31,398 bases of DNA from a virus. The position numbers and the translations under genes are program-made. The stretch spans positions 1 to 31,398 of the IMG/VR virus record IMGVR_UViG_3300034062_008006; one strand, 5' to 3'. Of this stretch, positions 1,680-26,744 are shown in pieces (position 1 is the first letter of the stretch; each line of letters starts with the position of its first letter). The notes below the pieces were generated by a model. The model saw only the letters and a program-made list of their open reading frames with translations, was not told the origin of the DNA and did no database searches.

Positions 1680-1916
1680 ATGCCAACAAATATTGTTATT
1701 AGTGGTGTTACCGGACAATCTCCCTATAATGTGTACGTATGTGATGATAATGTTACAAATTGTACTTGGGTTTCTCAATTTACAAGTGGGCAAATTCCTT
1801 ACAGTTTTGAATTACCCTACATATACCTTAGTTTATCGGATTTTGCGGTCAAAATTATTGACTCCAACGGGTGTTCAGTAACTAAACTAAGTGGTTCAAC
1901 TTATCCTGAATGTTAA
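1680..1916 (+). CDS. Small Cys-containing virion-type protein, paralogue of the 246-residue protein N terminus
   Basis: A 78-residue protein with ATG at 1680 and stop TAA. Its function is not known from any family I recognise. It aligns by eye over most of its length with the first ~67 residues of the 246-residue protein encoded at 8026-8766: both open with a short N-I/V-I-S-x-TG stretch, then PY-x-Y-CD, a Cys-containing turn and a K-I-I segment near the end. It ends in Cys (TYPEC). A TATTTATAA element lies 15 bases upstream, and the 479-residue gene follows after 4 bases, so the two are probably co-translated. Being a free-standing copy of a module found in a tail-region protein, it is probably a small virion or tail-tip component. 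The shared module makes it very likely a real gene despite its size. Confidence 0.65.
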   Translation: MPTNIVISGVTGQSPYNVYVCDDNVTNCTWVSQFTSGQIPYSFELPYIYLSLSDFAVKIIDSNGCSVTKLSGSTYPEC

Positions 1917-1920
1917 AAAT

Positions 1921-4011: not shown

Positions 4012-6273
4012 TTAGAAATCGAGTTTCACAAGGAATTGCTGAATACTTTGTCTTTGTATTGGTGATTGCAATTTTGAAATTGCCATTAGATTCCTATTAT
4101 CATCAAATAATCCAATTTCTGTCACATATGAGGTTGTCCCTGCAGACCAAGTGGGATTAGAGGTATAAGTAAACTCATTCTGACTCAAATTACACAAATA
4201 TCTCATTTCATAAATCGTGGCTTGTATTTCCGTTTCAATATTACCATAAAAGAAATATTCATCACCAAAATTCAGCACATTACCAGTTGCTCCTACTGTG
4301 GTTAAATCAATATAACTTCCCAAGTTATAAGTAGATGCTGTAGAATATAACGTGTTGGTTATAACAAAAGTAGTTGCACTCAAGTTAGTTTGATTTATTG
4401 TTGATGAGGGTAATTGTGAAGTTACATTTATTATTTTCCAAGCACTAGGGTCGGGACGAGTATCTCCACTTACTTTTTGACAAATAATTTCAAATGCATC
4501 ATAATCATTCAAATTAGGTAAACAACCAAATTCGTTTCCGAAAGTAACAGAAAAATTTTGAGTAACCGCATTACAAGTAGGATTAGGTCCTTGTAATTTT
4601 TGGTAGTAGTTACAATGTAATGAATTAGTAAATGGAGATGGTGCGTTTGTTGTAAACCTATATGTAATATACATATATTCATTTTCATTGGTCAATACTC
4701 CTGTCTCAGCTCCGTCAGGTGTTATTGTTGCAACCCTTGGTGCTGTTAAAGTCCAATTTCGATTGGATTTGTATGACAAAGCGGCGACTATTTCCTCATC
4801 ATCTAATACAATTATATGTAAATCAGGAAAGACCTTACCTATTCTACTTGGGTTACCGTCAGGATTTGCATATGTGTCCCACAAATGATAGTATCTATGA
4901 CCAGGAATATTCATATCATTATTCAAGTTTGAAGTAAGGTAATGTTCTTGGAATAGATTTTGACTTTCAAATCCAGATGGGTCAACATAAAATGTCTGAC
5001 CTGAACAACATACCCCGCTTGATTTATGCCACCCTAAAGTTGGTATGTGTAATCTAAAATTGCGAGCCATTCCAACAGTATTTGTTATGTTTTCAGGGTC
5101 ATATGGTTCTAATGCGAATTTTTCTCCATAAACAAAATCAATAGTGTTATTAGTGTAGTGAATTATTGCTATTGTTTTTTGGTCTTTTCCTTTTACGGTT
5201 ATTTGGTCACCTAATGAATTATAATAGTAAACAGAACTACTATCAGTTTGACCTGTACTACTACTGTATCCAAAATACTCCTTACTACCTAAATAATTGA
5301 CCGAACCAAAATTTGTATAATCCTTATAAACCGCTCCGTTTAAACCGGCAGGAGATTCACTCCAAGGAATATTCATATTCCAAATATTTACGTTAAATAA
5401 ATCTATATCACATACTGATTGAAAATTCAAAACGTCTTGGTTCCAGTGTTCTTCAGGGGTCGCACTATCATAAAAATTAGTCATTCCTGAGGGATAAACT
5501 AATATTCTAGCATTACCTGTTGAACCTATATATGCATAGTTTACAACATCTCTATCTAATGTAAGTGTATTACCAGCAACATTTACAATCCTATAGGTTA
5601 AAATAGGATTACAACTTTGGAATGACAGTAAGCAATTTCTGTCTGTTGGTGGTACTGGCGGACAAGGATTATATGGTGAATATGGGGGTGAACAAGTTCC
5701 TGAACTTGGAGTATAGGTACAGTTACAACTTGTGTCTGTTTGGTAATAAATTGTTATAAAATCGCCAGCTGAAAAAGTATAAGTTGAGGCGGTATTACAT
5801 ACGTTTTCACTTACTGTTATGGTGTTTTGGTTGAGACTCAATGTTGATATATCGACTTCATAATTTGGTGTTTTTACATACTCACTTCCTGTCCTTACAT
5901 ACCAATTTGTTGGTAAGGTGGTTGTGTCGGCACTGAAAAAACCTCTCATGGGTGCAACATTATATACGTTAGATATAACCGAATCCATGAATGGTATTCC
6001 ATAAGTTGAGCCAGCATTACCATCAACATAATATGGGTATTTTATATTTTGAACGTTTGCCGATGGTATTGGTGCACTATTTGCCGAATTAAAAGAGGGT
6101 TCTAAAATTACTGTATTAGTCTGGTCAAAATTAGAAATCACATTATATGAAATCTCACTATCACCTATTTGAAAATAACTTATATTGAAGCTTCCTTGAG
6201 ACATTTTTTCTCTGCCTGTGTCAGTAATTCTTGTATTGATTAAGCCCGAAGTATTTTTGAGTATGTATGCCAT
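4012..6273 (-). CDS. Tail fibre/baseplate-associated structural protein
   Basis: A 753-residue protein. The N terminus (residues 1-45) carries a pattern I associate with T4-like phage virion proteins, reading LINTRITDTGREKMSQG followed by YFQIGDSEISY, probably the attachment domain. The C terminus ends with TEIGLFDDNRNLMAISKL and a terminal VKLDF, also typical of phage tail proteins, which often describe a beta-rich trimerising or capping end. A Pro/Cys-rich loop lies at about residues 190-212. The remainder is Asn/Thr/Tyr-rich, beta-type sequence. No enzymatic motif is visible. The gene is downstream of the 545-residue protein with a 24-base gap that holds its own TATTTATTA element 3 bases before the ATG. 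A role at the distal tail or in fibre attachment is inferred from this and the context. Confidence 0.7.
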   Translation of the reverse strand: MAYILKNTSGLINTRITDTGREKMSQGSFNISYFQIGDSEISYNVISNFDQTNTVILEPSFNSANSAPIPSANVQNIKYPYYVDGNAGSTYGIPFMDSVISNVYNVAPMRGFFSADTTTLPTNWYVRTGSEYVKTPNYEVDISTLSLNQNTITVSENVCNTASTYTFSAGDFITIYYQTDTSCNCTYTPSSGTCSPPYSPYNPCPPVPPTDRNCLLSFQSCNPILTYRIVNVAGNTLTLDRDVVNYAYIGSTGNARILVYPSGMTNFYDSATPEEHWNQDVLNFQSVCDIDLFNVNIWNMNIPWSESPAGLNGAVYKDYTNFGSVNYLGSKEYFGYSSSTGQTDSSSVYYYNSLGDQITVKGKDQKTIAIIHYTNNTIDFVYGEKFALEPYDPENITNTVGMARNFRLHIPTLGWHKSSGVCCSGQTFYVDPSGFESQNLFQEHYLTSNLNNDMNIPGHRYYHLWDTYANPDGNPSRIGKVFPDLHIIVLDDEEIVAALSYKSNRNWTLTAPRVATITPDGAETGVLTNENEYMYITYRFTTNAPSPFTNSLHCNYYQKLQGPNPTCNAVTQNFSVTFGNEFGCLPNLNDYDAFEIICQKVSGDTRPDPSAWKIINVTSQLPSSTINQTNLSATTFVITNTLYSTASTYNLGSYIDLTTVGATGNVLNFGDEYFFYGNIETEIQATIYEMRYLCNLSQNEFTYTSNPTWSAGTTSYVTEIGLFDDNRNLMAISKLQSPIQRQSIQQFLVKLDF

Positions 6274-6297: not shown

Positions 6298-7935
6298 TTA
6301 TTTAACCGCGTTAGTTTGCATCTGTGTTGAGGTGGATGCGGTATTACTTATATTACAACAACTACAACCTGTTATTTGTTTATTTATAAGCCTTACAGTG
6401 TCCAAAGATTTCAAGATACAAACGTTACCTACCGCCGCAGTTTTGTTTACTTGAACCTGAATTGTTCCTGTAATACTATCACTACCTGAAATACTAATCC
6501 CATTGTACTGTTTAGTAATACCAGAACTAATTAATGTTGATTGATTTGGTGGACATGTTGATACTGCGGTAGCACTTTGTGATGTAGTAATTGTTGGCGA
6601 AATGACTTGCGTAACCCCATTTTTCTTAATCGAAACGTTAGAAATTACATTACCTCCATTTGAAACGGTTGTTTGTAAAATATTTTCAGCCTGTAAATTA
6701 AAAGATATCGTGGTATTTGCGGGTAGTGTTGTGACTACATTACCATTTACGTCTCTTACTTTAACTGTGAAATTTAACAAACTATTACCAGGGTTTTGAG
6801 GTACAATATTCGTATCAACTTCTAAGGTATATGTGTTGGTTGTGGGAGGTTGAGGTATTGTAACTTGTTGTTGTAATGTGGTTGAGTTACCATCTTGTAC
6901 TGTTATTGTATAACTTCCTGCCGGTAAATTAGAGAACAATGGACTTGATTGTGTTGTTAATCCACCATCTTTAGAATATGTTACAGGTGATTGACCGTTT
7001 AATATGTTAACAAAAATAGAACCTGTCAATGGTGTTGATTGGCAAGTTGGTGGAGTAATTGTAGCATTTTGTAATGTCATAATTGGGTTACCACAAACCC
7101 CATTTGTCATGACCGATGTAGTACCAGGACTTCCAAAAGCAATAAATGACCCCAAAGGAACTGAGGTATTTGATGAATTTCTCAATATAACAGGATTTAC
7201 ACCATCTCCAATCGGCATTTGAACTTGCCAAAAAGATGTTCCCTGTAAAGTTTGCCATGAAAGAACATATGGACCGTAAATCCATGTAAATTTATTATTT
7301 ATTCTTGTATTGGAAGGGGTGAAATTGTAGGTGTAAGTTCTATTTCCTATAGTTACTTGTAAACACAAGAAAGTAGTATTCAGTCCACCTGAAGATGGTG
7401 TTGGTGAAGGTGTAACCGTAGGTGTAGGTGTTGGTGGTGCTAATGTACACACAGTAGTTGCGGTATAATCAGGACCACCGTTAGGCCAACTATAATCAGT
7501 TACCGTAACACTATATGACACACCAGGTACTGCATTTGTTAACACAGGTCCTTGGAATCCGTTAGCCCAAACGATTTTATATGGGGGAGTTCCACCTGTT
7601 ACATTTATTGTTATTGTAGAGGCGGTAATGTTCGGTGAACATTCTATCCCCATCGGGAATTTAGTCACAACATCACACTCACTTGTCGCGGTAATCCTTA
7701 TACATGGGTTTGAGGTAATACAAGTCGCACAACTTCCAAAGTTAGTAAGTGTGGAACCAACTGAAGTATATGTTGGTGCTCCTGGTAATACAGAAGATAC
7801 AACTTGTGAACAACCTGTGAAATAGTTTGGTATTTGAGCGTAATAAACATTTCCTAAAGGTAAAGATGGACTCAAACCGGTTAGAATGAATGTGACACTA
7901 CTATCACAACAGGATTTTAAATATGATATTGCCAT
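6298..7935 (-). CDS. Modular Cys-rich host-contact protein with SprB-like repeats and a Pro/Thr linker
   Basis: A 545-residue protein built from modules. Residues 5-77 form a Cys-rich module (CC, then YYAQIP, GC, SC-x-x-C, NPC) that aligns by eye with the C terminus of the upstream 246-residue protein. Residues ~98-165 are SprB-repeat-like, with GGTPPYKIVW and a later S-V-T-V-T-D. Residues 167-182 are a Pro/Thr linker. Residues ~195-290 are a beta-rich segment with several Trp. A second SprB-like repeat spans ~292-360 (ITPPTCQ, LPAGSYTITVQDG). The last ~180 residues are beta-sandwich-like and end with GCSCC near residue 525. SprB repeats are known from flavobacterial surface adhesins. A host-binding fibre or tip role is inferred. 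Its own late-type element lies 42 bases upstream. Confidence 0.75.
   Translation of the reverse strand: MAISYLKSCCDSSVTFILTGLSPSLPLGNVYYAQIPNYFTGCSQVVSSVLPGAPTYTSVGSTLTNFGSCATCITSNPCIRITATSECDVVTKFPMGIECSPNITASTITINVTGGTPPYKIVWANGFQGPVLTNAVPGVSYSVTVTDYSWPNGGPDYTATTVCTLAPPTPTPTVTPSPTPSSGGLNTTFLCLQVTIGNRTYTYNFTPSNTRINNKFTWIYGPYVLSWQTLQGTSFWQVQMPIGDGVNPVILRNSSNTSVPLGSFIAFGSPGTTSVMTNGVCGNPIMTLQNATITPPTCQSTPLTGSIFVNILNGQSPVTYSKDGGLTTQSSPLFSNLPAGSYTITVQDGNSTTLQQQVTIPQPPTTNTYTLEVDTNIVPQNPGNSLLNFTVKVRDVNGNVVTTLPANTTISFNLQAENILQTTVSNGGNVISNVSIKKNGVTQVISPTITTSQSATAVSTCPPNQSTLISSGITKQYNGISISGSDSITGTIQVQVNKTAAVGNVCILKSLDTVRLINKQITGCSCCNISNTASTSTQMQTNAVK
7390..7437 (-). repeat. Pro/Thr/Ser linker repeat in coding DNA
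   Basis: Encodes the 16-residue linker at residues 167-182 of the 545-residue protein (P-P-T-P-T-P-T-V-T-P-S-P-T-P-S-S), the same type as the linkers in the plus-strand 479-residue protein. Confidence 0.75.
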
Positions 7936-8025: not shown

Positions 8026-8766
8026 CTAACAAGGATTAACTTCTGTACAGTCACTACAACTATTCATAGTAGGAAATGGAAAAACGGGTGATGAACTTGT
8101 ATTGGTTAGGTTATTCCAATCTACTTGAACATATGTTTGGTCAGGGGTTTCGTAATTACTAATCACAACCGTACAACCAGTATATCCGGTTCCCGTCCCT
8201 GTTCCTGATGGTGGAATTTGTACATACCATGAAATGTTGGGGTCAAAGGTTGATTGAAATGTTTCATCAAATGTGAATGTATAATTACTACAACATGCAC
8301 TAAAATAAGAAGGTGCCACCGAATCGTAACATTCTTGACAAGTGGGATATGGTAAACCATTAACTGTTAAAACTTCACCTATCTCATTTGTGAATTGATA
8401 TCCTGAAAAATACCAACATTCGGGATATTCGTTCAAAGATACAACCTGACCAAAATTTAGAAAAGGATTTATTTCTGTGTATTTACATACAGAAAAATCG
8501 CTACATTTACAAAAAGTAAATAATACATTTCCAAAATAAGAACAAACAACCGGTACATTTTTTTCACAAGGAACGTTTGTTTCTATAATCTTCAAAGAAA
8601 CTGCGGGAGCCCCACTGAAAAAATCAGGTAAAGGATAGACTTCTATTGGTGGAACATATGATGTGATAATATCGAGTAATTGGCAATTGTTACCTTGAAA
8701 ATCGCATAGATAAATTTCATATGGTGGAGTTAATCCTGTAATCGATGATATTATGATATTTTGCAT
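8026..8766 (-). CDS. Cys-rich modular virion protein
   Basis: A 246-residue protein with many cysteines, of no family I recognise. The N terminus (1-67) matches the free-standing 78-residue protein at 1680-1916. A middle part (about 84-150) carries C-K-C, YPECWYF and PTCQEC. The C-terminal module (about 154-246: ACC, WYVQIP, GC, SCSDC, NPC at the very end) matches the N terminus of the next gene's 545-residue product. It starts 3 bases after the stop of the 765-residue gene, has no late element of its own, and so is probably translated by coupling. It ends with TAG, the only non-TAA stop seen in the window. It is probably a structural part of the tail-tip or adhesion complex, with disulfide or metal-binding potential. 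Confidence 0.7.
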   Translation of the reverse strand: MQNIIISSITGLTPPYEIYLCDFQGNNCQLLDIITSYVPPIEVYPLPDFFSGAPAVSLKIIETNVPCEKNVPVVCSYFGNVLFTFCKCSDFSVCKYTEINPFLNFGQVVSLNEYPECWYFSGYQFTNEIGEVLTVNGLPYPTCQECYDSVAPSYFSACCSNYTFTFDETFQSTFDPNISWYVQIPPSGTGTGTGYTGCTVVISNYETPDQTYVQVDWNNLTNTSSSPVFPFPTMNSCSDCTEVNPC

Positions 8767-8769
8767 AAC

Positions 8770-11067
8770 TTAACAACTTTCGCAATCAATGTCATAAACT
8801 ACCTTAAGTTGAACTGTAACGTTTTGATTAGATAAAGCGTTTGTTGTTTCTTCACAAGAGGTATCTATTGTAATTGTATTTTCATTTGTGTTAACAATTA
8901 CTTCGCCTACACCTGTAACCCCACTTAATAAAGTTTGAACTGTTGAGTACCATAAAGATTCACTTGGTACAGTATTTAATGTTGTTGCAGTATAAAAAGA
9001 TTGTGTAAATGCGCTTCCCGCAACAGTGGTCACGGCCGAAAATATTGCAGAATTCATCAAACAGTTAGTACAACCTGAAGTTAAATCAATGTAACCTTCA
9101 ACCAACATTTTAGATAAAGTTCTTTCGGTTACTTGTCCGGTTGAACTTATCACACTATCACATACGTTAAATAACGAAAAATTTGTTGCGTTGTAAGTTC
9201 CTGCCAAAGTAACCGTATTAGACTGAACGCACCCTGCATTGTCTTGTACTGTAAGGCTATAGGTACCGGCAGATAAATTAGTGACAGTCGTACCTGTTTG
9301 TCCATTGACATTAGATGACCATGTCAAAGTAAAAGGAGGTGTTCCTTGATAGATATTTGCAATTATTTGTCCGTTTGACCCGTTAGTTGAATCCGTTGGT
9401 ATCAAAATAAAATTTACAGGTTCACTGTTACTTATTTCAAAGAAGGTTTGTTCTTGACATCTATTTTTGTCACTTACGTAAGCAATATAACTTCCAGGTG
9501 CCAAATTGTAGAATGTACAAGAACTCAATGGTGTGTTGTCCAATGTTTGGTCGTTATTCCCATCAACATCCTCTATCCAATATGAAAAGGTACTTGTGCC
9601 ACCTGTTGATTTAGTTATAGTCACACTTCCATTATTATTACCACATGTTGTACCTGAAGTTTGAGTTGATATTGTAAATAACTGAGAGCTAGATAAACTT
9701 ATTGATTGTGTATAAGTACAATTTCCATCGGTTATAGTTAAGAAATAAGTTTGTGGAGTTAGGTTAGTGAATGTTTTATTAGTCGATGTTGTCTCTGAAA
9801 AAAACGCTCCATTGGCACCACTCAAAGAATAAAAATAATTATTCGAATTTGTATTTCCGATTAATCCTATTGAAATAGCACCATTTGAGTTTCCACATGT
9901 TGGCGGAGTAGTATTAATTTGTCCTAACGCAAAACTATTAGATTGATTTATTTGTGTTGTTGTTGATACACTACATAATGCTGCGTCAGTAATTACTATG
10001 GTGTAGTTACCACCAGGTAAACCACTGAAAACATATGTTTGAGAATAACTTATATCGGTAAATGAAATCGATGGTATACTGTATCTATACGGTGGGGTTC
10101 CATTGAGTACCTGTAAAGTTATTTTACCATTATTATCGAAACAAGTTGGTGGTGATGTTGACACAAAACCTATACTCACTGGAAATTTTTCAATAACTTG
10201 TGATGTTACAGAAAAACCACAATCATTTGAATCGGTTACTGTAACCTCATAAAAACCAACAGTTAATCCGGTTATTGATGTTCCTGTTAGTGATTGACCT
10301 GTATCGATAAGATAATCTAATGTCGTACCAACTCCTTGCCATTTATATGTATATGGTGGAGTACCTGTCAAACCTGTTATAAAAATTTTCCCAACACCTG
10401 TTTCTACATTACCACAGTCAGCATCATTAACAATATATGTTCCGAAATTGACACCTACCGATGGTAATATTATGACACTTTCACTTCTTCCTGTACACCC
10501 ACCTCCATCATCAGCAATAACATAATATTTTCCATACGGAAGATTATCAAATAAATAATTGTCATTGTCTATTTCAACTTCTCTAATAAAAGTAATATCT
10601 TCTTGACCTGGTGGTTGTGGTAATGGGACTACTCTACCATCATTATCCTCCAAATACAGTTTGATATTAACTGTACCATTTGTATTCTGAACCGTAGCCA
10701 ATAAAGAACCATCAGAATTACCGCAAGTAGTGTTTACAACATCAGTTATATTGACACACGACGAACCTGAGGATATAGTAATACTTATGGTTTCTCTATT
10801 ATTTTCAGTGGTGGCGGTAGGACTTCCGCAACTGTCATTAATTGTAAAAACATATGTCCCCGCAGGCACATTTAGATACTCTCTTTGACCATTAAAAACA
10901 GGAGTTTCGACTGTATTACCTCCACCTGGAGGCCATGGATTAGGTAATATCCAAGTAATACTCATTGGTTCTGACGTTGAGGATAGATAAAGTGTAAATC
11001 CCCCAGAACCGTTATTTTCACAGTCCCCTGTTACTGAAAATTGACTAAAATTATATTGACAAGACAT
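8770..11067 (-). CDS. Virion protein with about seven SprB-like adhesin repeats
   Basis: A 765-residue protein. About seven repeats of ~65-85 residues fill residues 10-615, each running roughly from C-x-N-x-x-G-x-I through (G)TPPYxYxW to L-x-x-G-x-Y-x-x-x-V-x-D-x-x-x-C. Clear copies begin near residues 108, 213, 302, 385, 469 and 555; the first (10-90) is weaker. This is the pattern of the SprB repeat (Pfam PF13573), known from the SprB gliding adhesin and other Bacteroidota surface proteins, with an Ig-like beta fold. The last ~130 residues form a different module, ending DIDCESC, that is shared with the C terminus of the 992-residue protein encoded just upstream. It starts 3 bases after that gene. 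There is no signal peptide, as expected for a virion protein. A host-contact fibre role is inferred. Confidence 0.8.
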   Translation of the reverse strand: MSCQYNFSQFSVTGDCENNGSGGFTLYLSSTSEPMSITWILPNPWPPGGGNTVETPVFNGQREYLNVPAGTYVFTINDSCGSPTATTENNRETISITISSGSSCVNITDVVNTTCGNSDGSLLATVQNTNGTVNIKLYLEDNDGRVVPLPQPPGQEDITFIREVEIDNDNYLFDNLPYGKYYVIADDGGGCTGRSESVIILPSVGVNFGTYIVNDADCGNVETGVGKIFITGLTGTPPYTYKWQGVGTTLDYLIDTGQSLTGTSITGLTVGFYEVTVTDSNDCGFSVTSQVIEKFPVSIGFVSTSPPTCFDNNGKITLQVLNGTPPYRYSIPSISFTDISYSQTYVFSGLPGGNYTIVITDAALCSVSTTTQINQSNSFALGQINTTPPTCGNSNGAISIGLIGNTNSNNYFYSLSGANGAFFSETTSTNKTFTNLTPQTYFLTITDGNCTYTQSISLSSSQLFTISTQTSGTTCGNNNGSVTITKSTGGTSTFSYWIEDVDGNNDQTLDNTPLSSCTFYNLAPGSYIAYVSDKNRCQEQTFFEISNSEPVNFILIPTDSTNGSNGQIIANIYQGTPPFTLTWSSNVNGQTGTTVTNLSAGTYSLTVQDNAGCVQSNTVTLAGTYNATNFSLFNVCDSVISSTGQVTERTLSKMLVEGYIDLTSGCTNCLMNSAIFSAVTTVAGSAFTQSFYTATTLNTVPSESLWYSTVQTLLSGVTGVGEVIVNTNENTITIDTSCEETTNALSNQNVTVQLKVVYDIDCESC

Positions 11068-11070
11068 TTA

Positions 11071-14049
11071 TTAAAAACAATTAATTGAAAAATCTATTCC
11101 GACATTTATTTGGAACTCTGAATTTAAATTTAGACTATCACAAGTAACTGTAAATATTGTTACTTGGTTCCCTGATATTTCGTATCCTAAACCGTAACTG
11201 AATAAATTATCTAATTGTGATTCTAATGCAGTTAACCATTCGTTTGGTGTAGGATAACTATTTTCGAATAAATCTAATCCTACTCCTTCAAAAAATTTAT
11301 AATTAATAATTTGAGTACCACCCAAACTTATGTTTACATACCAATTACTTGTTATGGTATTTACATCACAAAGAGGATTATTTGTATATTCAGATATTAC
11401 ATAGTTTAATACTTCTCCAAAATTATTTGATATATTAGGATTAGATGTCCAAGGATAAATATCACAAATCGTCGAAGCTTGTTGACAATCATATGTAAGA
11501 ATTGGACCAACCAAAGTACACGGATTACAAGGGACAGGCACAATTTGACAACCTCTTTGTCTTCTCCAAACAAACTTTTGTCTGTGAAATGCAGAATTTT
11601 CAAATCTAGTACCTGCGTTCCAAATTGTAGTTGCGGGGACCATTTGTTCGACCAATCTAATCCAATAATCACCAATACCTTTTACATAGTTTATCATTTT
11701 TTGATAAGTGAATAGACTATCAGGTATTTCTTCAAAATTGATTGATTTTAAATATTTCCAATAAACTGACTCTAAGGTTGGGTACCCTCCTGTTTTACCA
11801 TTTGTTATATACTGTCTGTCTCTAACATTTATCATGTTCTGCCAAAAGGTTTGTGCAAATTCAAAAAATGTTTTTGAAGCAGGGTTTGGGTCAATTAACG
11901 TTTTATCCAAAATAGTTGGATTTAAATATGTCGGACAATAGCAGTTTCCACTTATTGTAAAACCAGTTGATGGAATTGGGTAGTCATAATTTTGAGACAA
12001 ATACCAAACATCGTAAGTGATTGCCTGACCTGGATTTAAGAACACCTCAACATTTTTAGCGTTTAAAACAAGTCTTTCGTCATCAACAAAATAAAATGAA
12101 TTATTACCGTCAGTATTTCTTCTCAATCCTGTTTCTACGTCCACCCAACTTTTCTTATTGTCTTTTGTTCTAGTTAAAGAGAACCCTAAATCAGTGTACG
12201 GAAAATCTCTGAACCTATCAAAATATTTTTGACCGTAAGTGAAATCTTCTAACTTTGTTTGATAATTAGGATTTTGACCTGTGAAGGTGCTTGATGTTGC
12301 ATCAAATACTTCATTTGACCTGTGTTGTGGAGTTTGTTCAAACCAACCGGCGCCTTTTTGAAAGAAGAAATCTTCTGTGTCTTCGGGAGCTTTAGGATAT
12401 CCGTTTTCATCAACGGGGAATTCTTCCCTTGTCAAATCAACGTCCAAAATGGTACTTTGTGATGTAAATCCTGTGAATGTTCTACCTAATACTCTAAAAG
12501 TATTTTCTGGTTCTAAAACAGGTAGTTCAATCGCGAATGTTCCTCCTGAAATTTGAGCATATTGTTGATTGAATTGTTTCATGTTGATTCTTTGGTCGGC
12601 AACATATATATACTCATTAAAATCAACTAAAGCGTCAGGTGCTCCTATTAATCTCAGTAGATTTTGAATCGACTGTCTTGTACCTTTTGATTTAAAAAGA
12701 TAGGCGGAATTTAATATTAAATTTCTATAAAATTGATAATTAAGTTCATCAGGTGTTGGAGCAACCGGTACTCCAGCAAACTGACTTGGGGTATTTGTAC
12801 CAAAGACTGAACTTAAGAAGGATTCATTTGTAATGGGTGATATTGATGCCGGCCAACCAAGTGTTTGTGATAAATTTTTGAGTAATTGTGATGGTATATC
12901 ATTACTAATATTATAATTTACCGAATTCATATAAGCCAACGCATCTATAAATTTCTTAACTTGGTCAAAACTTCTACCATATAATTCCAAAACTTTGGTG
13001 ATTTTTTGGTCATCAGTATCGAAGTCTTTGAACGCACCTGTTGTTAAAAATCTTACAATTAATTTGGTTTTAAATGTGTCGTAGTTTTCAGCAATCGCAT
13101 TTAAGTTTTCTATATAAGTATTGAAACTAGGGGTAACTATATCTAAGTTCCAAGGACCGTACAATGGCCATGTAACCGAATCGCTTGTCAAAAATGTAGT
13201 ACCATCATCCGCCTCTTTAACTATTGAAAAGTAAGAAGTATAAATCGGTAAACTTTTCCTATTAAGAATGAATTTTTCTACTTCGTCAAAATCTTGACTG
13301 AAAACTCGGTCTGTTACATTAGGACTAGGTCTGATATTAAGATTATCATAGGAAATTGATTGCCCTGAGAATGGGTCACCCTCAACTTGAATTATAAGTG
13401 TGCCGGTTGTGAGACTTTCTGTGGGGGTAATAAACGAAACCAAATAATTGTTCCCGTTCAAATATAAACTATATTTATTAGCATTTTTAACCATATCTCT
13501 CAATGGTGAAACTGGTGTTTCCAAAAGAGAAAGGTTTCTTGTTGAGTTTACAGTAAAGTCAATTCCAAAAGGATTGAGGATTGTTGATACATCTATTGAG
13601 AGAATTGTTTGGTTAGTTTCTGAATTATAAGATATGTTAGTTGCCGTACTACCTGTGGCAAAATTTTTCCTATTGAAAAAAACATCTATTGATGCTGGAA
13701 AAAAATTTAATATTTTAGTAAGTGAAACCGCAACTCTCTTTACCAATGAACCATACTGTGAAAAGTTAGTAACTTGACTTAAATCAAAATTTGGATATAC
13801 TTTAAAGTTTTTTTCTATTATCACTTTAGACTCTTCAAGAGATGTCATTCCCATTGAGTCTAAAGTAATTGGTTCTGAAAAAGTCCCTACAACAAACTCT
13901 CTATTTGATTTTTCGGTTATGGAAACCGTGAAATCAAAATTACCTTGAGTTAGTCCTCCACCATCTACTATCTGAAATCCAACCAGATTATCTGAGAAGG
14001 TGTTATCTGCGGTTGCTTGTTGCGGTGGGCAAGTATATTTTTTAGCCAT
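11071..14049 (-). CDS. Large baseplate/tail protein with a tail-protein-I-like region
   Basis: A 992-residue protein. Residues ~300-480 read like the phage tail protein I/baseplate wedge type: a helical stretch with SFDQVKKFIDALAYM, then LSQTLGW, and a conserved SKGTRQSIQNLLRLIGAP near residues 450-467. In contractile tails such proteins help join baseplate wedges to fibres. The C-terminal ~130 residues are Cys-rich (C-x-x-C near VPCNPC) and end in a module whose Trp938-to-Cys970 spacing is identical to Trp706-to-Cys738 in the 765-residue protein. The start ATG overlaps the stop of the upstream gene by one base (TAATG), so translation is coupled. Assignment to tail/baseplate is supported by motif and context; an exact T4 counterpart is not claimed. 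Confidence 0.7.
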   Translation of the reverse strand: MAKKYTCPPQQATADNTFSDNLVGFQIVDGGGLTQGNFDFTVSITEKSNREFVVGTFSEPITLDSMGMTSLEESKVIIEKNFKVYPNFDLSQVTNFSQYGSLVKRVAVSLTKILNFFPASIDVFFNRKNFATGSTATNISYNSETNQTILSIDVSTILNPFGIDFTVNSTRNLSLLETPVSPLRDMVKNANKYSLYLNGNNYLVSFITPTESLTTGTLIIQVEGDPFSGQSISYDNLNIRPSPNVTDRVFSQDFDEVEKFILNRKSLPIYTSYFSIVKEADDGTTFLTSDSVTWPLYGPWNLDIVTPSFNTYIENLNAIAENYDTFKTKLIVRFLTTGAFKDFDTDDQKITKVLELYGRSFDQVKKFIDALAYMNSVNYNISNDIPSQLLKNLSQTLGWPASISPITNESFLSSVFGTNTPSQFAGVPVAPTPDELNYQFYRNLILNSAYLFKSKGTRQSIQNLLRLIGAPDALVDFNEYIYVADQRINMKQFNQQYAQISGGTFAIELPVLEPENTFRVLGRTFTGFTSQSTILDVDLTREEFPVDENGYPKAPEDTEDFFFQKGAGWFEQTPQHRSNEVFDATSSTFTGQNPNYQTKLEDFTYGQKYFDRFRDFPYTDLGFSLTRTKDNKKSWVDVETGLRRNTDGNNSFYFVDDERLVLNAKNVEVFLNPGQAITYDVWYLSQNYDYPIPSTGFTISGNCYCPTYLNPTILDKTLIDPNPASKTFFEFAQTFWQNMINVRDRQYITNGKTGGYPTLESVYWKYLKSINFEEIPDSLFTYQKMINYVKGIGDYWIRLVEQMVPATTIWNAGTRFENSAFHRQKFVWRRQRGCQIVPVPCNPCTLVGPILTYDCQQASTICDIYPWTSNPNISNNFGEVLNYVISEYTNNPLCDVNTITSNWYVNISLGGTQIINYKFFEGVGLDLFENSYPTPNEWLTALESQLDNLFSYGLGYEISGNQVTIFTVTCDSLNLNSEFQINVGIDFSINCF

Positions 14050-14957
14050 TATTCAGTAATGTTTGTAAAGTTTTTACTGTAATCAATATTATCCCCTCTA
14101 TCTTGTCTAACTTCATATAAAAGACTATTAAATTCGTCTCGTACTTCATACAAGTTGTATTGTCTGAAAATGTTATTGTCCGTATCATACATAGTGTAAA
14201 TACCATCTTCCATAGATTTTGTTTGGTTTCCAAGTAAAGCAATTGCTAATGTAGAGATGTCGTTTTCTACGATTTCTACTTCAATGGTTATTGGATTGAA
14301 AAAGGTATTAGAGATAATGACGTTTTGATTCGGTTGACCGATAAATGGTGTGGCATTTGGTTTATTTGTTGGTGATGACGATGGTGATAAAGTACAAAAC
14401 AATAAATTTGTAGAACCATCAACATATCTATATCTAATTGATTTTTGTGAGCTGTTAACTTGGTTTTCCAAAATAGGTTCACAGAAAAATGAAGAAGTTA
14501 TAATTCTGAAAAAGTTTGGTATTTTTGTTCCGTCAGAATTCAAATACTCCACTCTAAAACCTACAAGACCCTGAGCAACAAATTTATTTCTAAATTGCGA
14601 TGGGACGGCATCGATGTTAAACACAAGTCCTTTCACATTAGGTAGCGCCGACAACACACCACAATCAGTGATTGTCGTTCTTATCTCTGCCGGTCTTATA
14701 TAGATGTTGTATATACCAAGTTGATTGAACACATTACTTGGTAATTTTAAATTGTATAAACCGCCCAAAATTTCCACCCCAGCATTTCCTCCTGTATTTT
14801 CATTATTAAAATATGGTGTTAGAACTTCTTGAGCGTTCAATGTTGTTAGAATAAAATTATCGGTCTCGTCTCTACTTTCAGTGTAATTCAATATTATTTG
14901 TACATCTTCTGGTGAGACATCAGCGGGTCTTATGGTTCCGTAGGTTCCTGTAGCCAT
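14049..14957 (-). CDS. Structural protein of the baseplate cluster, unknown function
   Basis: A 302-residue protein that I do not recognise. The N terminus (TIRPADVSPEDVQIILNYTESRDE) is followed by beta-rich sequence. A Ser/Pro/Asn-rich linker lies at about 190-206. The C terminus is charged (YEVRDEFNSLLYEVRQDRG). No membrane segment or catalytic motif is visible. It heads a translationally coupled run: the 992-residue gene overlaps its stop by one base, and the 765- and 246-residue genes follow at 3-base gaps. A TATTTATAA element lies 12 bases before its ATG. It is probably a small baseplate or fibre-attachment protein, from its position between gp6-type genes and fibre genes. Confidence 0.6.
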   Translation of the reverse strand: MATGTYGTIRPADVSPEDVQIILNYTESRDETDNFILTTLNAQEVLTPYFNNENTGGNAGVEILGGLYNLKLPSNVFNQLGIYNIYIRPAEIRTTITDCGVLSALPNVKGLVFNIDAVPSQFRNKFVAQGLVGFRVEYLNSDGTKIPNFFRIITSSFFCEPILENQVNSSQKSIRYRYVDGSTNLLFCTLSPSSSPTNKPNATPFIGQPNQNVIISNTFFNPITIEVEIVENDISTLAIALLGNQTKSMEDGIYTMYDTDNNIFRQYNLYEVRDEFNSLLYEVRQDRGDNIDYSKNFTNITE

Positions 14958-14979: not shown

Positions 14980-16176
14980 TTATGTTTGATTTTTTGTAAC
15001 TTTGAAATATTTGTATCCGTAAGATGCCAATCCTCCTATCGTAGACACTTCGCCTAATCTTCTTATTTTTTCAAAAGGTGAGACCTTTCCTCGTTCGATG
15101 TATACGTTTGAAAATATTTGAGGTTCATCTACGACGTTCAATAAAGTTTCATCTTTGGTTATTGCAGTCATTATTAAATTATCAGATGTCAGTCCTGATG
15201 AGGCAACAACATAAATTGATGTACTGTCAACAAAATCGTAATAATCAATACCATTGACTTTATAACTTACTGATAATCCATCATTTGATTCCCCTTTGTA
15301 AATACCTACTGTACCGCTCGAACCTGTTATTGTTTGGTTCAATTTAAATGACCTTCCGTTTTTACTAACATTACCTTTATACTGCGCCAAATCATTAAGT
15401 GTTGACACCGTATAACCTGTTATAATGAATGGTATTTGTGTGAAATCGGAACCTAAATAATCATTTAAGTTAGGATTTGAATCTCCTGAAAAAATGTAGT
15501 CGTATGAAATTGGTATACCTGACCAACTACCCCCTTGTGGTACAAAATAAGCAGTACCGTTTGGATTTGGAATTGTTGTTCCTGTAAATGGAACATATAT
15601 TGTTTTTTCTATGATGGATAAACCAAAAGAAGTCGAACCAGTCATTGTTATCTTGTAACTTGATGGTGTCGAAGGGTATGAATGAGATACGTAATTTGGG
15701 GCAAAATTAGTTATAGTTTGTATCGGTGAATTATCACCCCAATTAACTTTAAAAGTTGACCCTTTTAGAAACTTTTTATATTGTTGGTCTGAAGTATTAT
15801 ATAAATAAACAGTAGAGGCGTTAGGTCCGGTTCCTGATGAAAAAACAAAATTTGTGATAACGTCTTTTTGTAATATAGCGCCATCAAATACTGAGTAATA
15901 ACCGATATCTATGGTATTTTGTGTGAATAAAACAGGTATCGTTAATCCAGTCATCAATGATGTTCCACTTGTCGCACCTGTAACAACTTGTGACATTTTC
16001 AAATAAACATTTGTTTGTCCTGTTGTGAAATAAAAATTTTCAGTGTAAGATGTGAAATCACAACACGCCTCATCTATCGTGTATGTAACACCTGTTGACG
16101 CTGTGTAGATGACAGTTCTGAAATCACTTTTGATAACTTCAGGAGAAATTTTGATATAGTATTTTTGGTCTTCCAT
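14980..16176 (-). CDS. Virion protein with a PKD-like domain
   Basis: A 398-residue beta-rich protein. Residues ~120-197 look like a PKD (Ig-like) domain: FKVNWGDNSP at 142-151 and HSYPSTPSSYKITMTG at 165-180, the usual W-G-D...H-x-Y...Y-x-(I/V)-x-(M/L) core. PKD domains act as extracellular adhesive or spacer folds. The N terminus has one C-C pair (38-39). No enzyme motif is visible. It overlaps the upstream 273-residue gene by one base and belongs to the same coupled run that starts with the 1864-residue gene. A baseplate or fibre role is inferred from the neighbourhood only. Confidence 0.6.
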   Translation of the reverse strand: MEDQKYYIKISPEVIKSDFRTVIYTASTGVTYTIDEACCDFTSYTENFYFTTGQTNVYLKMSQVVTGATSGTSLMTGLTIPVLFTQNTIDIGYYSVFDGAILQKDVITNFVFSSGTGPNASTVYLYNTSDQQYKKFLKGSTFKVNWGDNSPIQTITNFAPNYVSHSYPSTPSSYKITMTGSTSFGLSIIEKTIYVPFTGTTIPNPNGTAYFVPQGGSWSGIPISYDYIFSGDSNPNLNDYLGSDFTQIPFIITGYTVSTLNDLAQYKGNVSKNGRSFKLNQTITGSSGTVGIYKGESNDGLSVSYKVNGIDYYDFVDSTSIYVVASSGLTSDNLIMTAITKDETLLNVVDEPQIFSNVYIERGKVSPFEKIRRLGEVSTIGGLASYGYKYFKVTKNQT

Positions 16177-16997
16177 TATGGATTAATATATTCATACCAG
16201 TTTATAGGATTAGATGTTTTTCCTACTCTAGCAGGACTTGAACCCACTATATCAAAAATTTCATATGTAAAATCACTATAGTTCATAACTACTTTGTAAA
16301 AGAAATATTTCTCTTCACTAAAAGTAAATTTACTTGATTGTAATTGTGGTGAACCTTGGCTTCTTGTAATCATACGAATGAACTGTCCCGTATTTGCATT
16401 GAAGAATTTTGCAGACATATAGAAAGTGTCTATGTTGTAAAAATCCCTTGATTTTAACCAATAGAAAAAATAACCTTCTTTTTGATTTACATAATCTAAT
16501 GTGTAAGTAGGTATACTAATATTAACATCAGGAAAGTATTCTGAAATTGAAAACTTAGCATCCGAACTTTGGTTTGCGGGTAATATAATTGAAAAATAGT
16601 TTCTTTGTGTCGCAAGTTTGTTGGTATCATAAAAGTCCAACTTAAAAAAAGATTTCAGAAATGGTTTTGTCGTATAATAAATTTCATTGTTGGTAAAACC
16701 CATAGGTAGATAAGATATACCCCAATCATTGTTTGTTGCTGATTGGAAATTATCTGTCGACCCTGTATAAAAGTGAAAATTATATTTAACTTGAGTTTCG
16801 AAACTATTAGGATATTGTTTGTTTGCGAACCTTGCGAGTTCGAAATCTTTTGGTTGTCCAATTGCTTTTTCTACCGCCTGTTGTTGAAACACATCGAGAC
16901 TATCGTCTTGACCATACATGTCCCATTTTATCTCTATTGGTATGTCAATTTGTTTACCCAAATTAGACCTCAATATTTTATATTTACTCACAGTCAT
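16176..16997 (-). CDS. Structural protein of the baseplate cluster, unknown function
   Basis: A 273-residue protein not recognised by family. It is rich in Phe, Tyr and Asn (for example FFYWLKSRDFYNIDTFYMSA) with an acidic-helical part near residues 28-55. No signal peptide, membrane segment or catalytic motif is visible. Its start overlaps the end of the 596-residue gene by 14 bases and its stop overlaps the next ATG by one base (TAATG). It has no late element directly upstream, so it is probably translated by coupling. Its place after the gp25-gp6-gp7-position genes suggests a baseplate wedge component. Confidence 0.6.
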   Translation of the reverse strand: MTVSKYKILRSNLGKQIDIPIEIKWDMYGQDDSLDVFQQQAVEKAIGQPKDFELARFANKQYPNSFETQVKYNFHFYTGSTDNFQSATNNDWGISYLPMGFTNNEIYYTTKPFLKSFFKLDFYDTNKLATQRNYFSIILPANQSSDAKFSISEYFPDVNISIPTYTLDYVNQKEGYFFYWLKSRDFYNIDTFYMSAKFFNANTGQFIRMITRSQGSPQLQSSKFTFSEEKYFFYKVVMNYSDFTYEIFDIVGSSPARVGKTSNPINWYEYINP

Positions 16998-18774
16998 CTG
17001 AAACAGGTTCTATTGGTGCGGTTATAGTTGATATCGAAGTAGAACCTTCAGGTATCAATCTGAAAATAATATTTTTGAATGGGTAGTGAGCTCCGTTCAA
17101 AAAGGGAAAATCCGAACCAACTCCGTCAGGGTCAATATAACCATATGGGTATATATCTCTCCAAAAGAAAGTTTGTGTGGATTTATTATAAATAGCCCAA
17201 TCAGGTATTTCACTTACCTTTGCAGGGTCACCTTCTTCTATGTATGACGAAAAATATTTAATCGTCATCGAATGATGTGGTTGATAATAAAAACCAAGTG
17301 GATTTTGTGGTGTTGATTCACCTGTTATATTGATATTAAAAACATTATCATTATAGGTTATTTTGTGATAAATGTTTGAAACCACCCTTTCTTTATATTC
17401 GAAATCATTCCATTCACAAAAGTCACCATCCAATACATCACCAATCTCTAATGGCGTATTATAGTAAAATGTTCTCGGTAATGAATTTGTGGGTGTCTTT
17501 ACATAAGATGCAGTTTCAATACTTGACACATATGAGTTTGAATCCGCGACTGAGGGGTCGTTTGTCCACCATTGGTCAGGTTTTTTTTCATATAGTGGTA
17601 AATTGAAAGCCCATCCTTGCCTCAGTGATTTTTGTCCTAATGTTGGTTTATTTGTCCATCCTAAATAACCAATCCATTGGAATGTAAAAAATAACTCGGA
17701 TAGAGGTCTTTTTTGATTGTCAATTAAATTTGAAATGGTTATGTTATCTAAAAAATTAAGATTGTAACTTTGGCTTCCTTCTTTGACCGAAACTCTTGAT
17801 ATATTATTTGGGGTAAGCGCCGATGGCTCATATTGTTTGATAACTTTAAATGGGTTCAATTCAAACCCTGAATTGGTTAAAACTGCGTCAGAGTTTTTTG
17901 TGATAATTTTTTGTCTCCTAACATAGTATTCTGACCTTGTTGATTCTACATTATTCTCATCTATAACTCTTTTGAAGGTACCTGTAACTCCTTGAGCAAA
18001 TGTAGTTCCTGTGTAACCAAAATCGGGGATACTGAAAACAAAATCTTGAGAACCGAATGTTCCATCACCTAATCGAGTTACTTGAAATACGTTTTGGTCT
18101 CCATATGAAAATGATAATTCTGCGAATTCGTATATACTTAACCCGTGTTTACCTAAACATCTGAATGATATTAAATTTTGTCCGTTAAATGTTGAGTGAA
18201 AAACAACGAAAGGTATTCCATTTATAGAGTTCCAGTTTAATCTTACTCCTGATTTGGGTTCCACACCTGTCATAAACCTCTGAACATTATCATAAGCATA
18301 GCTCAAAAAGAAATTCCAATTATATGATGTTGCACTAGTACTAACAAAATTTATATGTCCATTAGTATTTGGTTCTGTGTATCCATCGGTGTCGTTATCA
18401 GTTCTTGATAAATCAAACTCATTATATAACGGATATCCTGACCAATAAACATCCGAATTACCGGAGTCACAAGCCTGTCTTGTTGACGCAAGAGCATTAA
18501 CATAAAAAAGATTTTCGGTAAATGGCGGATAGTTTGTTTCACCAACATATGTGTTTTTGAACAAGTAGGTAATTTTTACTGATGGTCTGAATAACGTTGA
18601 TTTTTCTCTCTCATTTACATAAACATCGTACAAATTTATTTTCTGACTTCTATCAAATTCAGTTAATAACTTGGTATTTTGTACGAACGGAACATTTAAT
18701 GTTGAGGTCAGTACAGGTGCTGACTTGTACCTTAACTGACTTAAAACTATTCTAACATTTGATTCTCTTCCCAT
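16984..18774 (-). CDS. Baseplate-region structural protein, unknown function
   Basis: A 596-residue protein with no motif that I can name. It is beta-rich with many aromatics and repeated short Gly/Asn loops, and ends DDCE, that is with Cys next to the last residue. It follows the 1864-residue gene at a one-base gap and overlaps the next gene by 14 bases, so the three form one translational unit. In T4-like phages the position after gp7 is taken by gp8, but sequence similarity to gp8 cannot be claimed by eye. A TATTTATAA match inside the gene (17186-17194) codes for DWAIYNK and could be chance or a weak internal promoter. Confidence 0.6.
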   Translation of the reverse strand: MGRESNVRIVLSQLRYKSAPVLTSTLNVPFVQNTKLLTEFDRSQKINLYDVYVNEREKSTLFRPSVKITYLFKNTYVGETNYPPFTENLFYVNALASTRQACDSGNSDVYWSGYPLYNEFDLSRTDNDTDGYTEPNTNGHINFVSTSATSYNWNFFLSYAYDNVQRFMTGVEPKSGVRLNWNSINGIPFVVFHSTFNGQNLISFRCLGKHGLSIYEFAELSFSYGDQNVFQVTRLGDGTFGSQDFVFSIPDFGYTGTTFAQGVTGTFKRVIDENNVESTRSEYYVRRQKIITKNSDAVLTNSGFELNPFKVIKQYEPSALTPNNISRVSVKEGSQSYNLNFLDNITISNLIDNQKRPLSELFFTFQWIGYLGWTNKPTLGQKSLRQGWAFNLPLYEKKPDQWWTNDPSVADSNSYVSSIETASYVKTPTNSLPRTFYYNTPLEIGDVLDGDFCEWNDFEYKERVVSNIYHKITYNDNVFNINITGESTPQNPLGFYYQPHHSMTIKYFSSYIEEGDPAKVSEIPDWAIYNKSTQTFFWRDIYPYGYIDPDGVGSDFPFLNGAHYPFKNIIFRLIPEGSTSISTITAPIEPVSDDCE

Positions 18775-24442: not shown

Positions 24443-26281
24443 TTAACTAAAGTTAACTGTTTTGAGATTTTTAACCCTAACAGATATGTCTTTACCAGGA
24501 AATCTAACTTGATATGTTTGTGTTGGTTCTGCGAATATTGTTTCATCAATCAACTCTATTTGTTTAGTATCTGAATTAGAATATCTTTGAGAGGTTTGAG
24601 ATGAGGAATATTGTCCACCAACTTGATTAAATACATCGATTTGTGCAACCGTTACTACTCCATTTAGGTTTTGAATATCTTTTCTTATTTCTGAAACATA
24701 TATATTTTGACCCATTTCTCTGACTGAAGGTGCGAAGTAATTTGTTACAATATCAACTATTTGTGTAATTATTGTCCCTTGGTTTTGACCTCCATCCAAT
24801 ACAACGTATATATCAAATTTTAAATCTATTACTTGAGCACTTTCTATCGATACATAATCATTAATCATTCTATAGTTCGATAAATAATTCGCTAAATTAG
24901 ATTTCAATGTATTGGATATAACATTTGTTAGTTTACCTGTGGAATCATATGATAAACATTGAACTTTTATTTTGTTATCTTGTTCTGTAATTGCAACTTT
25001 TGCTGGAGCTCCGAACTGTGAAGGCATTCCTCTAATTATAGACTCATAATCATTTATTGTTACTGCTCTTTTTTGTGCCGCAAAATTATAAGTAACATAA
25101 TTTCTCACTTCTTCTACCGAGGGAACATTTGCCCCACCAATTGCCGCTGTAGTATTAGTACAATTCAATGAATTAATAACTGAGGTATTTTGGGACTGTG
25201 ACGGCCCATTGACCGCGAAGTTTATAGTACCCAATTGGTTAATTACACTTACACCAACATTACTTCCTAACCCACCACCAACTCTATACTGTATAAATAA
25301 TGTTGAGTTCGCTTTTAAAGTACTACCCAATGATAAATTATTAGAATATTTTTGTAAATTGAGTGGATTACCTGTTGCCGCAAATTCTCTTAACTGCTCA
25401 TCAGAAGATTGACTACCACCACCAAAAGTCATTTTAAAAAACCCTTCGGGTGTAAACTCTGTTATAAATTTGTTACTTGTAGAAATATATTTTCCAACTT
25501 TAATCCCTGGTTGGTCTGTGGCTTTAGTTGGGTCTTCTACAAATACTTTATCTTGAATTAAGGCATCTACTTCATACCATTTATTGTTTGTACCCAAAAA
25601 TTCTTGGTCTGATGGTACATTTGCATACTGAGTTCCGTCTTTGAGTATGACGCTTGTGACACCTAAAACATTTTTTTCAGGTAAGAAAATTTCTAAGAAT
25701 GGCACAACATCATTTGGTAACACAGTCTTTTTGAAAACTTTTGTAATTCCATTTACGACCGTTTCTCTTTTGGTAATTGTATAGTTTAATATGATTCCAT
25801 TTGAATCCAAATTTGGAATTTTGGTCCTGTTTGGGAATCCTTCATTATTAAAGGGTGATGAAAAATCGATGTCATATACCGTTTCAAACGTTTGTCCAGC
25901 ACCTTGTACTTGTGAACCTCTTCTTAATATACCACAATACCTTATATCTTCTTTGTCACCAAAAGCGGGTACAATAATAGAAAAATCTACTAATGCAACC
26001 GATGGTCTTTGACCCGGTACTTTTAATCCATATGTTCTTGCTAAGTTATATATTGAGGACCTTTGTTGTGCATATTGTAGTACTGTTTCTTGGATACTCC
26101 TATCTATTTGGAATTGTAAGTTATCTGATACCGCAGCATTCAAGTCTAACAAAACTGAAAAAATAGACGCATCATTAACATTAGCTAATAAATCAGGATA
26201 ATATGTTCTAACAAAATTTATTAATTCAGTTCTTATCGATTGAAAATCTCTGACCGTGTATGAAATTTTTTTATTTGCCAT
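24443..26281 (-). CDS. Baseplate wedge protein gp6 (baseplate J-like)
   Basis: A 612-residue protein close in length to T4 gp6 (~660). The N terminus has the gp6 signature: YTVRDFQSIRTELINFVRTYYPDL (residues 8-31), then ASIFSVLLDLNAAVSDNLQFQIDR and an RSSIYNLARTYGLKVPG segment. The C-terminal part has the J-like motif AQKRAVTINDYESII (about residues 398-412). In T4, gp6 forms the inner ring that ties baseplate wedges together. It lies directly after gp25 (4-base gap), the order seen in T4-like phages of other hosts. TATTTAAAA starts 11 bases before its ATG. Family assignment is strong. Confidence 0.9.
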   Translation of the reverse strand: MANKKISYTVRDFQSIRTELINFVRTYYPDLLANVNDASIFSVLLDLNAAVSDNLQFQIDRSIQETVLQYAQQRSSIYNLARTYGLKVPGQRPSVALVDFSIIVPAFGDKEDIRYCGILRRGSQVQGAGQTFETVYDIDFSSPFNNEGFPNRTKIPNLDSNGIILNYTITKRETVVNGITKVFKKTVLPNDVVPFLEIFLPEKNVLGVTSVILKDGTQYANVPSDQEFLGTNNKWYEVDALIQDKVFVEDPTKATDQPGIKVGKYISTSNKFITEFTPEGFFKMTFGGGSQSSDEQLREFAATGNPLNLQKYSNNLSLGSTLKANSTLFIQYRVGGGLGSNVGVSVINQLGTINFAVNGPSQSQNTSVINSLNCTNTTAAIGGANVPSVEEVRNYVTYNFAAQKRAVTINDYESIIRGMPSQFGAPAKVAITEQDNKIKVQCLSYDSTGKLTNVISNTLKSNLANYLSNYRMINDYVSIESAQVIDLKFDIYVVLDGGQNQGTIITQIVDIVTNYFAPSVREMGQNIYVSEIRKDIQNLNGVVTVAQIDVFNQVGGQYSSSQTSQRYSNSDTKQIELIDETIFAEPTQTYQVRFPGKDISVRVKNLKTVNFS

Positions 26282-26283
26282 GT

Positions 26284-26292
26284 TTTTAAATA
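26284..26292 (-). promoter_or_regulatory. Variant late-promoter-like element (TATTTAAAA)
   Basis: Minus-strand TATTTAAAA overlapping the gp25 stop codon, with the TATTTA hexamer 5 bases before the gp6 ATG, the same hexamer-to-ATG spacing as for gp25. It is a weaker match, and gp6 may instead be coupled to gp25. Confidence 0.3.
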
Positions 26293-26744
26293 TTGATTAT
26301 AATGAAATCACTCGATTCGAATGTATTTGTGGTTACAACAAAATCTATTTTTACTTTTGCGGTATGTTCTTTGGTACCAATACCAGGTACTCTAAAAACC
26401 CTTTCATCACCTGATATAACCGTTCTATTTTCAGACTCTTCCTCCGTTGAGGCATCAAAAACTTGTAAAGAAGTTATTTTAAGATTAGGTATGTATTTTT
26501 GTACTGAGTCCCTTATTTCCGCTTCTATTTGAGAAAAGGTCGGTCCATCGAGTGGTTCAAAAATGTATTCCAATAATCTAGTTCCAAAATCAGGTAAAAA
26601 ATATCTTGTACCTTTTCTTGTTAGTAGAAGATGAATCAAATCAGTTCTTAATTCATCTTTAGGTGTTGTTGATAAACTTAAATATCTACCGTCTTTAGAA
26701 TCATTAAATGGGAAATTTATTCCGTATGTTATTTGATTTGCCAT
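26286..26744 (-). CDS. Baseplate wedge protein gp25 (GPW/gp25 family)
   Basis: A 152-residue protein, in the normal size range of the GPW_gp25 family (PF04965). The hallmark lies at residues 29-57: a helix DELRTDLIHLLLT followed by KGTRYFLPDFGTRLLEYIF, then the acidic helix EAEIRDSVQKYIP. gp25 is a conserved baseplate component that helps trigger sheath assembly and contraction. It is followed 4 bases later by gp6, which supports the call. The start ATG (MANQITYGIN) is 2 bases from the end of a TATTTATAG element, so the leader, if transcription begins there, would be very short or absent. Confidence 0.93.
   Translation of the reverse strand: MANQITYGINFPFNDSKDGRYLSLSTTPKDELRTDLIHLLLTRKGTRYFLPDFGTRLLEYIFEPLDGPTFSQIEAEIRDSVQKYIPNLKITSLQVFDASTEEESENRTVISGDERVFRVPGIGTKEHTAKVKIDFVVTTNTFESSDFIIINI

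Follow-up and report, generated by a model that had tools for sequence, protein, structure and literature searches.

The 765-residue protein encoded at positions 8770 to 11067 of a 31,398-nucleotide virus fragment from IMG/VR (the whole stretch analysed, hereafter the window) consists of seven SprB-type Ig-like domains followed by a C-terminal domain (CT). We consider this protein, here named SprB7, to be probably a baseplate-associated tail-fibre shaft or adaptor of a contractile-tailed phage of Bacteroidota, which carries or positions receptor-binding parts. Its gene context suggests that SprB7 is present in the virion.

Domain composition and predicted fold of SprB7

The coordinates in the preliminary description of this DNA were exact, and the coding strand is the minus strand. 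Its assignment of the protein to the SprB repeat family was borne out by a PF13573 search, in which the protein scored 45.2 bits over five stretches (cut-off 28; E 7.1e-12), and this family was also matched by 27/27 SprB7 relatives (best 3.6e-27). PF07495 (Y_Y_Y) likewise scored over its cut-off in SprB7, and a PHROG search of the protein gave no match at all. Domain borders were obtained by cutting an alignment of 12 orthologues at the conserved cysteines, which resulted in seven domains and a tail. What had been described as about seven repeats is thus exactly seven, D0 and R1 to R6:

10759..11067, minus strand: D0, residues 1-103; SprB-like and the most diverged of the seven, conserved between orthologues
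10456..10758, minus strand: R1, residues 104-204
10174..10455, minus strand: R2, residues 205-298; resembles the T5 decoration-protein Ig domain 5lxk
9928..10173, minus strand: R3, residues 299-380; best Pfam SprB stretch
9682..9927, minus strand: R4, residues 381-462
9424..9681, minus strand: R5, residues 463-548; Pfam Y_Y_Y as well
9199..9423, minus strand: R6, residues 549-623
8773..9198, minus strand: CT, residues 624-765; alpha/beta by prediction, not related to the repeats and conserved across the family

Single-domain profiles from 12 orthologues were scored against ~4,800 shuffled segments, and nearly all domain pairs matched above the best shuffle. The R3 profile, for example, matched R5 with 42, R6 with 38, R4 with 35, R2 with 34, R1 with 33 and D0 with 16 bits, while shuffles reached at most 11.4. 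None of the domain profiles matched the last 142 residues, i.e. CT. When a profile of R1 to R6 was run on the window, each of these six domains was found with values of 1e-21 to 1e-24, and D0 gave a weak match (0.02). No DNA-level tandem repeat was found, which is in line with the earlier remark that the repeats diverge from each other.

AlphaFold2 modelling, which reached middling confidence (pLDDT 73, pTM 0.34), predicted the anticipated beta-sandwich, namely Ig-like folds in tandem with nearly all-beta repeats, and an alpha/beta fold for CT. Because of this middling confidence the relative placement of the domains is not fixed by the model. A fold search of the PDB returned 222 matches at E <= 0.001, and most of the top ones were proteins that string together Ig-like or related beta-sandwich domains. 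The best of these was the grappling-hook protein GhpA from Aureispira, which belongs to the Bacteroidota, and the best viral structural match was A0A6J5LD72, annotated as 'SprB repeat'. A deeper sequence profile also found GhpA in the PDB, together with a T5-type decoration protein and a neck-whisker protein.

SprB7 is encoded in a baseplate/tail module

The window is a piece of a contractile-tailed phage genome, which also encodes DnaB, ribonucleotide reductase (RNR), primase and RuvC-like genes. The tail module and the genes around SprB7 are as follows:

26286..26744, minus strand: baseplate wedge gp25-like gene; PHROG 261/43
24443..26281, minus strand: baseplate wedge gp6-like gene; PHROG 219/6; 26% identity to Flavobacterium phage immuto
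18776..24370, minus strand: 1864-aa gene, conserved tail module
14980..18774, minus strand: 398-, 273- and 596-aa genes, conserved tail module
14049..14957, minus strand: 302-aa gene (U302), the module's most conserved member
11071..14049, minus strand: 992-aa partner gene (U992), directly upstream of SprB7 in nearly every relative
8770..11067, minus strand: SprB7 gene; 765-aa protein with seven SprB/Ig-like domains and CT
8026..8766, minus strand: 246-aa gene, conserved partner downstream of SprB7
6298..7935, minus strand: 545-aa gene; one clear SprB-like domain (~6847-7065), a weak second one and a TPTPT linker
4012..6273, minus strand: 753-aa putative tail fibre, so named from its position and N-terminus

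The gene order is gp25, gp6, 1864, 596, 273, 398, 302, 992, SprB7. Large genes without assignment begin after gp6 and have SprB7 at their end, in a slot straight after the 992-aa gene, and the order from the 1864-aa gene to SprB7 was seen again across IMG/VR contigs. A misassembled bacterial adhesin gene was ruled out, the slot being identical in dozens of contigs. The 992-aa protein had no clear match in Pfam, PHROG or PDB, and its position points to a baseplate component. No homologues of the 302-, 992- and 1864-aa proteins were detectable in the 50,697 phage records searched, and the 302-aa protein was found in 0/395 Bacteroidota genomes, in a search run without a positive control. The tail module of Flavobacterium phage immuto (Immutovirus) likewise starts with gp25/gp6, its gp6 being the 26% match listed above, but it has no SprB repeat and no detectable homologue of the 992-aa, the 302-aa or any other module protein.

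On the opposite strand, between the primase and RuvC-like genes, the window encodes a 489-aa protein with TPTPT linkers (1891-3360, plus strand) that had no family match; ORFs of ~480-490 aa occupy the matching place in two related loci (L004 and L005).

The seven-domain array is fixed among relatives

Close relatives were collected by protein search, and a DNA-level pattern for GTPPYxYxW added many others, the counts below being among the matches listed. This census favours motif-bearing proteins and contains near-duplicates (28/36 were left at 85% identity); proteins of ~260 aa with a single repeat from the motif scan were put aside as a different family. At least 74 ORFs had three or more repeats, and at least 40 of them were intact, i.e. 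not cut by the end of a locus. The intact relatives listed from IMG/VR reach down to ~31% identity. Among these 40, CT was present in 39, and a homologue of the 992-aa protein was encoded on the same strand in 38, almost always overlapping or abutting. By profile, 32/40 of the intact relatives listed had exactly seven repeats; beyond these, three reach seven when a weaker first domain, picked up by the other scan, is counted, and in one further relative listed the frame is broken by a stop, leaving two plus five repeats, which again makes seven.

The best match of each of the eight domains was the domain at the same position in another phage, for 27/27 members. The repeats are therefore orthologous by position, and the fixation of the seven-domain array predates the radiation of the group. 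This agrees with the earlier suggestion of an old domestication instead of recent copying; a recent repeat expansion was ruled out by the lack of DNA repeats and by the position-wise orthology. D0, R6 and CT were the most and R1, R4 and R5 the least conserved domains, a pattern that would fit an anchoring at the rod ends. Since some relatives also have long N-terminal heads, either end of the rod may face the baseplate.

CT is shared with the 992-aa protein and precedes exchangeable tips in many relatives

CT is homologous to the last ~120 residues of the 992-aa protein (~11077-11442; hhalign probability 96.9, E 1.9e-10), a homology that is also visible in the window itself. In a distant phage (contig G008) the homologue of the 992-aa protein is split in two, and the latter half is joined to seven SprB repeats in a single ORF of 1580 aa. 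The two proteins are thus tied by constant adjacency, a homologous C-terminal domain and a fusion in a distant phage; the shared CT and the fusion suggest that they are physical partners.

In many relatives, CT is followed by a Thr-Pro (TPTPT) linker and then by an interchangeable tip. These tips vary: one (in L086) matched DUF285 at 1e-94, and others had no assignment. A linker followed by varying tips is what one would expect of a shaft or adaptor whose tips can be exchanged. The C-terminal tails of the SprB7 homologues in L086 and L090 contain DUF285/BspA-like repeats and are apparent phage tips. Nothing follows CT in the window phage, where the tip may be supplied by downstream genes, one of which itself encodes a SprB-like domain and a TPTPT linker.

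SprB7 compared with SprB adhesins and other Ig-like proteins

A0A6J5LD72, from an uncultured Caudovirales phage (UniProt/BFVD), matched SprB7 structurally over its full length (714 aa, 31% identity, E 1e-59) and evidently belongs to the same family; its name is a database label for a phage protein from a metagenome, with no function attached. The host SprB adhesins (PF13573; Fluviicola, Saprospiraceae and others) share the repeat family with SprB7. Since the phage repeats scored equally against host repeats and against phage repeats of other positions, descent from host-type repeats is plausible, with either direction of transfer possible. The host proteins had 4 to 38 repeats in the stretch compared (some are cut by the end of a locus), in contrast to the fixed seven of SprB7. 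Furthermore, a hydrophobic signal-like stretch is present in those Fluviicola-type host proteins whose start is intact, whereas neither simple hydropathy nor reading revealed a signal-like N-terminus in SprB7. A C-terminal domain for type IX secretion (T9SS) was present in 4/4 bacterial SprB proteins scanned, whereas Pfam found neither CHU_C nor Por_Secre_tail in SprB7; sub-threshold Por_Secre_tail matches in relatives lay inside repeats and not at the C-terminus. A T9SS cargo or secreted gliding adhesin was thereby ruled out for SprB7, which, judged by its sequence, belongs to the repeat family and not to the secreted adhesins.

GhpA of Aureispira sp. (PDB 9flp, 9fly), the best solved structural match (sequence profile E 8e-6), is a bacterial protein of 5,898 residues, unlike SprB7. 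T4 Hoc is a string of Ig-like domains with a conserved C-terminal anchor on the phage head (PMC10385173). SprB7 resembles Hoc and T5 pb10 as a phage protein with strung Ig-like domains, and Hoc also in having a conserved C-terminal domain; the pb10-type Ig domain matches SprB7 by profile. However, Hoc and pb10 are head proteins with a gene context other than that of SprB7, and the likeness covers the layout and the Ig domains.

A tail-fibre shaft and its alternatives

In the reading that we favour, the seven SprB-type Ig-like domains would form a rod of fixed length. CT would serve assembly by docking to a partner common with the 992-aa protein, or to the 992-aa protein itself; we infer both this docking role and the rod geometry. 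Receptor-binding parts would sit beyond CT, in many relatives as a same-chain C-terminal tip behind the Thr-Pro linker, and in the window phage they would probably come from the separate downstream genes (246, 545 and 753 aa). The repeats may have been recruited long ago from the adhesin repertoire of the host phylum, or share a common ancestor with it, and then have been frozen. The preliminary description had offered use of the fold as a spacer next to mimicry of, binding to or competition with host surface fibres. The evidence favours the spacer or rod; no sign of mimicry of, binding to or competition with host SprB fibres was seen in the sequence or gene context. Since many related viruses keep the exact rod beside a baseplate-module gene, a tail-fibre shaft is more probable than an adhesin decoy.

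The SprB-type domains might themselves bind sugars or fibres of the host surface, including SprB-like adhesins, for receptor binding or reversible attachment. Phage Ig-like domains can indeed be adhesins, as in gut phages on epithelium (PMC13370021), and the SprB7 domains match adhesins of the host phylum. In addition, gliding/T9SS mutants of Flavobacterium columnare resist a phage (PMC9233685), a result that concerns phages other than that of the window. We nevertheless regard such a direct adhesin as rather unlikely, because the seven domains are fixed, SprB7 changes more slowly than its 545-aa neighbour (the fastest-evolving among the neighbouring genes compared in close relatives), and unrelated tips are attached beyond the rod in relatives, suggesting that binding occurs there.

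It is more doubtful still that SprB7 is a Hoc-like decoration, a head or neck fibre whose conserved C-terminal domain holds it in place while its variable Ig-like domains project outwards. The Hoc-type layout of C-terminal anchor and Ig string and the sequence matches to decoration and neck-whisker proteins in the PDB agree with such a role, but the slot in the baseplate module beside the 992-aa gene, the CT common to both proteins and the fusion argue against it. Finally, molecular mimicry, in which displayed SprB-type repeats would bind or block the host gliding machinery or evade recognition, draws on family resemblance only and is highly improbable given the ~30% identity to host proteins, the lack of a T9SS C-terminal domain and signal-like start, and the repeats frozen by position.

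Putative secreted SprB-like proteins encoded by phages

A 261-kb relative of the window phage (contig G003) encodes a second SprB protein of 858 aa (L188:2743-5319, plus strand). With its signal-like start, SprB and PKD repeats and CHU_C T9SS sorting domain, it is apparently a secreted adhesin encoded by the phage. A 642-kb uncultured phage (LR756502.1) encodes a 1670-aa protein with 13-15 SprB repeats, PKD, CHU_C and a signal-like start (L187:9379-14391, plus strand); three CHU_C matches were found in this genome and a homologue of the 992-aa protein was not. Further CHU_C-bearing proteins occurred in virus contigs at L195 (G003 189451-189663) and L194 (G015 120714-120938). Conceivably, though we think it improbable, phages of the G003 type act on the adhesive surface of the host in a twofold manner, through a SprB rod on the virion and a secreted SprB adhesin made during infection. 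If true, this would alter how infected cells attach or glide.

Bacteroidota as the very probable host phylum

Shine-Dalgarno-like motifs preceded few genes, 1/16 in the window and 1/44 in relatives, compared with 1/26 in a Flavobacterium phage and 10/12 in a Salmonella phage. The closest RNR DNA was that of Tenacibaculum phages, the nearest gp6, an uncultured huge phage aside, belonged to Flavobacterium phage immuto and Microcystis phage Mel-JY01, and the cellular matches of the SprB profile were all from Bacteroidota (23/23). Together, these observations make a Bacteroidota host very probable. A Bacteroidota-type promoter pattern, which matched 7 times where 3 were expected, was left out of this argument. 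As for phage Mel-JY01 (PP395634.1, L031), which has the gp6-like protein in common with the window, its Shine-Dalgarno-like motifs (10/28) were fewer than the 10/12 of the Salmonella phage, and its host assignment may merit a look.

Implications

A literature search limited to open-licence papers, and hence weak evidence of novelty, found no paper linking SprB repeats to phage virions or describing the SprB7 family. SprB7 defines a tail-module protein that is widespread among uncultured phages of Bacteroidota and has apparently not been described before. As a probable shaft with a swappable tip, it would serve to mark this phage group and would show where to seek what determines host range among the phages of a dominant aquatic phylum. 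It would also represent a bacterial adhesin repeat that has been put to use as a phage part of fixed length.
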